The position numbers and the translations under genes are program-made. Positions 35,622 through 53,719 of a stretch of 64,000 bases of DNA are shown piece after piece. Under the pieces are notes generated by a model that saw nothing but the letters and a program-made list of their open reading frames with translations, did not search any database and was not told the origin of the DNA. The stretch comes from Methanorbis furvi (lineage in GTDB: Archaea > Halobacteriota > Methanomicrobia > Methanomicrobiales > Methanocorpusculaceae). How positions within the stretch are numbered: position 1 is the stretch's first letter; each line of letters begins with the position of its first letter. Where the stretch lies: the NCBI RefSeq assembly GCF_032714615.1, contig NZ_JAWDKA010000006.1, positions 62,001-126,000 of the forward strand, read 5' to 3'.

Positions 35622-35810
35622 TTTTTCCTTGACAATCTTTTTTTTTGAAAATATTTTGAAACGCGAATTCTGAAACGTGATTTTTGAAACGCGAATAGCA
35701 CGAATAGCGCGAATAAAAAAATCGCCAAAGGCGATTTTAGAAATTTATTAAAATTATTTTTCAGTAGGAGTTACGTGGTGTACTGTTGAGTGATGAAGTG
35801 TTGTCTCGTG

Positions 35811-35956
35811 AAAAAACCGCCACGGATTCACACGGATTCCAAATTTGCCAATCGTCATTATCTTGCGTTCGGTCGGGACTTCGGCTAATCGCCTCCGTCC
35901 TTTTCGACCTCACTGGATAATGACTGGCAAATTTTTTCGGTTTTTTGTTGAGTGGT
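35811..35956 (+). repeat. Structured repeat element, left copy
   Basis: The element runs from AAAAAACCGCCACGGATT through a core, TTGCGTTCGGTCGGGACT ... GTCCTTTTCGACCTCAC, to AAATTTTTTCGGTTTTTTG and AGTGGT. Within it GTCATTATC and GATAATGAC can pair, enclosing the core, which itself can pair through GGTCG/CGACC and GGC-TAATC-GCC. The right copy is its reverse complement with about 90 percent identity. Confidence 0.85.
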
Positions 35957-36056
35957 ACATGTGGCTTTGTTTGGAGAAAAATCAATTACAGATTCACACA
36001 TATTGTATTTTCGGAAAAAAATGTGAGTGAGTACGATGAGAAAAACAACACTCACC

Positions 36057-36202
36057 ACTCCAACAAAAAACCGAAAAAATTTGCCAGCTGTTATCCAGTG
36101 AGGTCGAAAAGGACGGAGGCGATTAGCCGGAGTCCCGACCGAACGCAAGATAACAGCGATTGGCAAATTAAACATCTGTGTAAATCCGTGGCGGTTTTTT
36201 TT
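36057..36202 (-). repeat. Structured repeat element, right copy (inverted)
   Basis: Read on the minus strand this copy aligns end to end with the left copy. The internal stem has changed on both sides, from GTCATTATC/GATAATGAC to GCTGTTATC/GATAACAGC, so three adjacent base pairs differ and pairing is kept. The core between them is almost unchanged (one T to C). Confidence 0.85.
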
Positions 36203-36397
36203 ACATGAGACCACGTTCATCAGTTACCCGTTTACAATTTTCAGAAAAAAAGGAACTGAGATATTTTTGCAATATCACACCGCGTAAGTCCTATTTCAGA
36301 TAAATCCATTCGCTTTGGGAATGCGGAAAATTTCTTTTTTTTGAAAAATCGCCATTGGCGATTTTTTATTCGCGTTATTCGCGTTTCAAAAAAAATA

Positions 36398-53293: not shown

Positions 53294-53719
53294 TTAATAC
53301 TTCGCTGCGGTTTTCGCTTTGGGATGAAACGCGAAGAACGCGAATAGCGCGAATGAAAAAAATCACCAATGGCGATTTTTCAAAAAAAAATTGTCAATGT
53401 TTTTTCCGTGTAATTCCGTGTGTTCCGTGGTTGCCCCAAATAAAACCAAGGACAGAGAATCCCTTTTTCTTATGCTATTTCATACCGAGTAAGTCCTATT
53501 CAGAAAAAATCGACTAAATCTTTTTGTGAGAGTACATAGACTCCTAAAAATCGCCATTGGAGATTTTTTCATTCGCGCTATTCGTGCTATTCGCGTTCTT
53601 CGCGTTTCATCTACACCCCAAAACCAAGCCACTTTTCAAACATTCCGGACAAAGTAACCCTATCAGGCATGTTTATCATATCACAGGGCTAATATATACC
53701 ACAAACAGGGGTAGATATT
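53294..53719. repeat. Intergenic region: family C pair around A and D fragments
   Basis: A large inverted structure: the left family C arm 53325-53390 (GCGAAGAACGCGAATAGCGC, CACCAATGGCGAT) and the right arm 53545-53611 (CGCCATTGGAGAT, TATTCGCGTTCTTCGCGTTT) flank a family A right end (53403-53448) and a family D fragment (53485-53540). AATATATACC at 53691-53700 is the TATA box of the aIF1A gene. No gene is seen. Confidence 0.75.

Follow-up and report, generated by a model that had tools for sequence, protein, structure and literature searches.

Structure and extent of the element

Within the window, which is the whole stretch of 64,000 nucleotides that was analysed, two arms in inverted orientation were found at 35811-35950 and 36061-36200, being 91% complementary and separated by 110 nt. 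The inverted pair described in an earlier note on this DNA was thus real, although the arms measured 140 nt and not the 146 nt given there. Moreover, the unit marked in that note was too short, since the arms are nested inside a longer element of 529 bp bounded by terminal inverted repeats (TIRs). When the copies of the own genome were aligned, conservation ran past the arms and stopped at the terminal repeat TAGGAGTTACGCGGTGT, of which 3 matches were present in the 64-kb window (0.09 expected). The parts of the locus are as follows:

35759..35764: left target-site duplication TTTCAG, with exact 6-bp identity to 36294-36299 just beyond the TIRs
35765..36293: whole non-autonomous TIR-bounded element, 529 bp, defined by the TIR pair and the target-site duplication; multicopy in the own genome and absent from the orthologous region of G019
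35765..35781, plus strand: left terminal inverted repeat TAGGAGTTACGTGGTGT, 17 bp, with 1 mismatch to the family consensus
35811..35950, plus strand: left 140-nt arm of the UCA type, inverted repeat, fold z -5.9
35844..35931, plus strand: left structured hairpin, 88-nt core, covariance model match G000:C6:97844-97931 (the window starts at C6:62001)
35951..36060: spacer between the arms, 110 nt, in its empty form, with no ORF of 80 aa or more wholly inside; cargo genes occupy the same place in relatives
36061..36200, minus strand: right 140-nt arm of the CUG type, inverted repeat, fold z -5.2 to -6.5
36080..36167, minus strand: right structured hairpin, 88-nt core, covariance model match G000:C6:98080-98167
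36277..36293, minus strand: right terminal inverted repeat TAGGACTTACGCGGTGT
36294..36299: right target-site duplication TTTCAG

No transposase gene was recognisable within the 529-bp element when the ORF list was inspected by eye. Elsewhere in the window, a solitary degenerate copy of the terminal repeat with 3 mismatches was seen at 53482-53498. Outside the element, further inverted repeats appeared at 35716-35743 and 36340-36367 (AAAATCGCC..GGCGATTTT), together with GCGAATAGC repeats at 35681-35706 and 36367-36392, and in G019 the stretch between these outer inverted repeats runs in the opposite orientation.

Copies, mobility and the transposase

The 140-nt arm had 32 matches in the own genome, mainly in inverted pairs (best E 1e-68), and approximately 13 paired copies of the element were present there. 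Allowing up to 3 mismatches, the terminal repeat was located at 87 genome sites, compared with 6 for the reversed control, and target duplications, mostly 5-7 bp long and AT-rich, accompanied 19 of the 27 elements, compared with 5 in the mispaired control. Furthermore, the element was absent in the closest relative (G019) from the orthologous gap between a 97-aa gene and a large neighbouring gene, which presumably resembles an O-phosphoseryl-tRNA synthetase. On the 3' side of this same gene, a separate insertion was common to G003 and G017, the corresponding site of G015 being empty, and in the G017 copy the hairpin pair had been deleted between two GAGATT repeats. The TIRs, the excess of target duplications and the sites of relatives lacking the element support the earlier proposal of a transposable hairpin element.

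The same TIRs bound a 1103-bp element (G000:C4:185483-186585) with a TTTTA duplication, which holds an interrupted and decayed transposase matching NF049921 IS701 (E 1e-62) and the Pfam families DDE_5 and DDE_Tnp_1; the NF049921 match, from a broken gene copy, reached 213 bits and stayed under the family cut-off of 250 bits. No intact transposase of the NF049921 family with matching TIRs was found among the 25 genomes of the genus, where the only traces were a G014 fragment and the decayed own-genome copy. As the ends are common to both elements, mobilisation in trans by an IS701-like transposase is suggested, and the decayed IS701-type gene is likely a remnant of the past mobiliser. However, target duplications of the IS701 family are 4 bp long, and the observed duplications of 5-7 bp fail this expectation for an IS701 derivative. 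Also counting against a TIR transposon, many hairpin elements of G015 and G017 lacked recognisable TIRs. The idea that all the cargo cassettes described below move via TIRs was dropped, as several cargo elements were devoid of them.

Fold and covariation of the hairpins

Both arms folded locally on either strand (z -5.2 to -6.5), with none of the shuffles being equally good. The three adjacent compensated changes reported in the earlier note were confirmed, the pairing being GTCATTATC/GATAATGAC in one form and GCTGTTATC/GATAACAGC in the other. A search for the core in the host and its relatives, which that note had proposed, revealed recurrence across the genus, and the aligned copies showed covariation. 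In particular, using a covariance model built from 15 hairpins and an alignment of 150 hairpins from several species, stem pairing was observed in 84.7% of the cells (33-55% with the partners slid), two-sided change at 18 of the 29 stem pairs, and double changes in 276 cells (78 after shuffling). This covariation supports selection on structure, as the earlier note had held. Regarding the refuting condition set in the earlier note, namely further copies lacking covariation in the stem, the older copies did covary, while the recent ones of the own genome also bore unpaired stem changes. In recent copies, 12 change events fell in 58 stem sites against 13 in 30 loop sites. Moreover, when the own genome was compared with the M. 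labreanum-like group, the stem sequences had diverged widely, while the apical loop and part of an internal loop were kept.

Distribution and the two hairpin lineages

Matches to the hairpin model were present in 13 of the 25 Methanocorpusculum genomes, with up to 58 matches per genome, and a scan of 120 genomes of the order with the covariance model gave no match in any other genus. The hairpin core also occurred in public contigs, including those of M. parvum XII and Methanocorpusculum sp. UBA424, while the core pattern was not found in viral contigs. Two loci labelled as an Acholeplasmataceae MAG (L426) and a Bacteroidaceae MAG (L383) resembled Methanocorpusculum contamination. In Opitutae (Verrucomicrobiota), a 21-nt apical core, GCTYCGGCTNATCGCCTNCGC, was seen in dozens of hairpin repeats (L365-L440), some of them in inverted pairs; homology to the hairpin family is not claimed, as the match is limited to those 21 nt, and GxxExxY appeared in 1 of 40 loci, far from the motif.

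Hairpin pairs were mostly heterotypic, the M. labreanum-like group combining types X and Y and the own genome UCA with CUG; therefore, the arms in the window represent two old hairpin lineages and not a fresh duplication. In G017, the core at one orthologous site was inverted with respect to G015 and G003, and this site holds a chimeric hairpin of both types, as expected from strand exchange near the apical loop. Another site presented a single fused hairpin in G017 where G015 has two.

Two kinds of small insert were observed within the hairpins. One of them, 52-55 nt long and cloverleaf-like (GTCC-[hairpin]-GAGACGTCTC-[hairpin]-GGAC), had stems wholly unlike between species; own-genome copies bore it in the apical loop, those of M. 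labreanum-like genomes in the 3' strand of the stem. It appeared in the right arms of L002 and L017, in L178 (around 620-690), and in L222, L261, L263, L267, L268 and L272, and is possibly a tiny mobile hairpin element in its own right. The other one, a two-hairpin insert of 57 nt in the apical loop (L178:489-636, L238:1654-1803, L342:834-982 and others), varied in presence among orthologous copies (L238 vs. L266) and had its own covarying stem, CAGGC/GCCTG vs. TGGGC/GCCCA, with the loops TTT, TAT and ATA.

Regarding genomic placement, with gene orientation taken from a simple codon-score gene call, 37 loci lay between convergent genes, 27 between co-directional genes and 4 between divergent genes (P-value of 1e-7 on raw counts); counting apparent orthologous sites once, approximately 29 convergent against 4 divergent sites resulted. 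This convergent bias may reflect either function or the purging of insertions near promoters, which the orientation control of TIR-only elements (3 convergent, 2 co-directional and 1 divergent) is too small to separate, with n=6.

Cargo genes in relatives

The window element carries no cargo, while hairpin pairs in its relatives enclose genes, of which several resemble defence genes. The cargo included two KAP NTPases with matches to PADLOC PDC-S20, a protein of 1278 aa that matched PD-Lambda-4_A, and GxxExxY nucleases, found between hairpins in three cases. One DUF4062 and one YdjM protein were also enclosed but had no PADLOC match, so not all the cargo is demonstrably defensive. At one host site, near-identical hairpins enclosed unlike cargo, a KAP NTPase in G017 (L168) and YdjM in G015 (L171); in other species, no full hairpin was found at this site within the stretch read. 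The DUF4062 cargo of L170 had TIR-like sites at both ends, and G004 and G018 also encode KAP proteins of the cargo family. L168 also showed, at 2770-2815, the remnant 3' half of a third hairpin and a stem-loop, lying between its KAP gene and its right-hand hairpin, as if the cargo had been inserted beside a pre-existing hairpin.

A parallel arrangement was found in one Methanocorpusculum clade (G002, G007, G010, G018 and G023), where PD-(D/E)XK genes of the GxxExxY family form inverted pairs of two distinct types with approximately 60% mutual identity (L326-L339, e.g. L326:958-3043 and L338:864-9514). These pairs flank a DpnI-like enzyme, type IIG, type II and type I restriction-modification systems, and other defence-like genes. 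L326 and L338 represent a single host site, where the flank and both arms correspond and the cargo differs. In some of these arms, the apical module of the window hairpin family, GCTTCGGCTAATCGCCTACGC, lies beside the start codon of GxxExxY, the model giving a weak, local match (best E 0.014). A possible link between the hairpin family and these arms is suggested.

Interpretation of the element

The features that define the window element make it MITE-like: it is small and multicopy, has TIRs and target-site duplications but no transposase gene, and shares its ends with an element holding a transposase remnant. The paired structured hairpins and the gene-carrying relatives set it apart. On balance, we lean towards regarding it as a cargo-free, non-autonomous Methanocorpusculum transposon with hairpin boundary modules. 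An IS701-like DDE transposase would have acted in trans on the 17-bp TIRs, generating the AT-rich duplications of 5-7 bp. The two inverted hairpins inside the element are of unlike lineage, and each is kept by compensatory change. As to the function of these hairpins, we infer that they work mainly as boundary modules at the level of DNA or cruciform. Together with the adjoining T-rich stem-loops, they may shield the cargo and the neighbouring genes from read-through, which fits the position of hairpins between convergent genes; however, the conserved internal loops exceed the needs of a terminator, and recent hairpins of the own genome bear unpaired stem mutations, both of which count against this reading. 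Furthermore, the conserved hairpin sequence would allow the swapping of cargo by recombination in the arms, while the unlikeness of the arms may avert a long perfect palindrome, which replication would delete.

Other readings share part of this evidence. The hairpin might be a site that an enzyme recognises as folded DNA, the PD-(D/E)XK protein GxxExxY being the most plausible candidate, with cassette capture following an integron-like logic. Although we consider this unlikely, it would agree with conserved loops on covarying stems, with the hairpin pairs bracketing 3 of the 5 GxxExxY genes in G015, with the inverted heterotypic GxxExxY pairs that flank restriction-modification cargo in the other clade, some of whose arms have the same apical module, and with the like arms and unlike cargo of L326 and L338 at one host site. 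However, the recombinase is putative, GxxExxY is absent near most hairpin pairs and may be mere cargo or a defence nuclease, the common apical module is short (best E 0.014 in the arms adjoining GxxExxY), and homologous recombination can account for the swaps. An equally low probability is given to a broader version, namely a Methanocorpusculum system of defence-gene cassettes with unlike inverted arms (GxxExxY-bearing in one clade), where that nuclease would act on the hairpin to swap the cargo and the window element would be an empty slot.

A structured non-coding RNA encoded by the hairpin, for example a small RNA or a site of processing within mRNA 3' ends, seems distinctly unlikely. The stable fold, the covariation, the conserved internal and apical loops, and the T-rich stem-loop directly 3' of the hairpin in the M. 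labreanum-like group are consistent with it. On the other hand, single-step mismatches on the hairpin strand amounted to 6 G-U and 13 A-C, as read off the per-pair table excluding the outer helix (helix 1), subtype-fixed columns and insertion-made cells. As G-U was not favoured over A-C, the RNA that the earlier note had offered is not specifically supported; moreover, a candidate upstream TATA-like sequence varied between copies by eye, and no Rfam family matched. At a permissive threshold, a few Rfam models, mostly miRNA precursors, hit the long inverted repeat, and were rejected as all were far below the gathering threshold. Even less probable, in our judgement, is that the compensatory changes arose unselected, with template switching or gene conversion in quasi-palindromes copying one stem strand onto the other. 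Such copying would explain the adjacent multi-base double changes (UCA to CUG), the near absence of one-sided G-U intermediates, and the chimeric and fused hairpins as signs of active rearrangement, but T-G and C-A single-step intermediates do occur, the internal loops are kept while the stems diverge between clades, and recent copies change less at stem sites (12 in 58) than at loop sites (13 in 30).

Relation to known systems and significance

REP/BIME palindromes associated with RAYT are imperfect palindromes of approximately 35 nt which, like the hairpins described here, form intergenic inverted pairs, while the latter are multi-loop structures of approximately 90 nt. Integron gene cassettes carry attC sites in arrays of direct orientation; the likeness lies in structured, recombination-prone hairpins beside single defence-type genes and in cargo differing at one site, whereas here the hairpins occur in inverted pairs, with no attC core motif seen by eye and no integrase noted in the fetched loci. 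Mobile insertion cassettes have IS-type ends and a passenger gene without a transposase, as does L170, but in the present family passenger genes are framed by structured hairpins and the majority of copies lack cargo. The term 'mobile insertion cassettes', for IS-derived elements with passenger genes, is used in PMC2266710 and PMC6542083. The window element also resembles Correia/NEMIS, ERIC and RUP elements (PMC10969869) in being short, multicopy, TIR-bounded and intergenic, with AT-rich target duplications, predicted stem-loop transcripts and ends common to a transposase-bearing element. It differs from them in holding two distinct hairpins, heterotypic and covarying, whose loops are conserved, and in having related elements with genes between the hairpins.

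To our knowledge, few vehicles for the movement of defence genes have been described in methanogens. A family of elements with hairpin arms, spread across the genus, empty in most cases but at times carrying defence-like genes, and differing in cargo between species at some sites, would be a tractable archaeal example of defence-cassette exchange, and would give a possible role to the GxxExxY nuclease family, which is widespread yet unexplained. Furthermore, the hairpin set offers a test case for telling apart selection on RNA, selection on DNA structure and palindrome-driven mutation.
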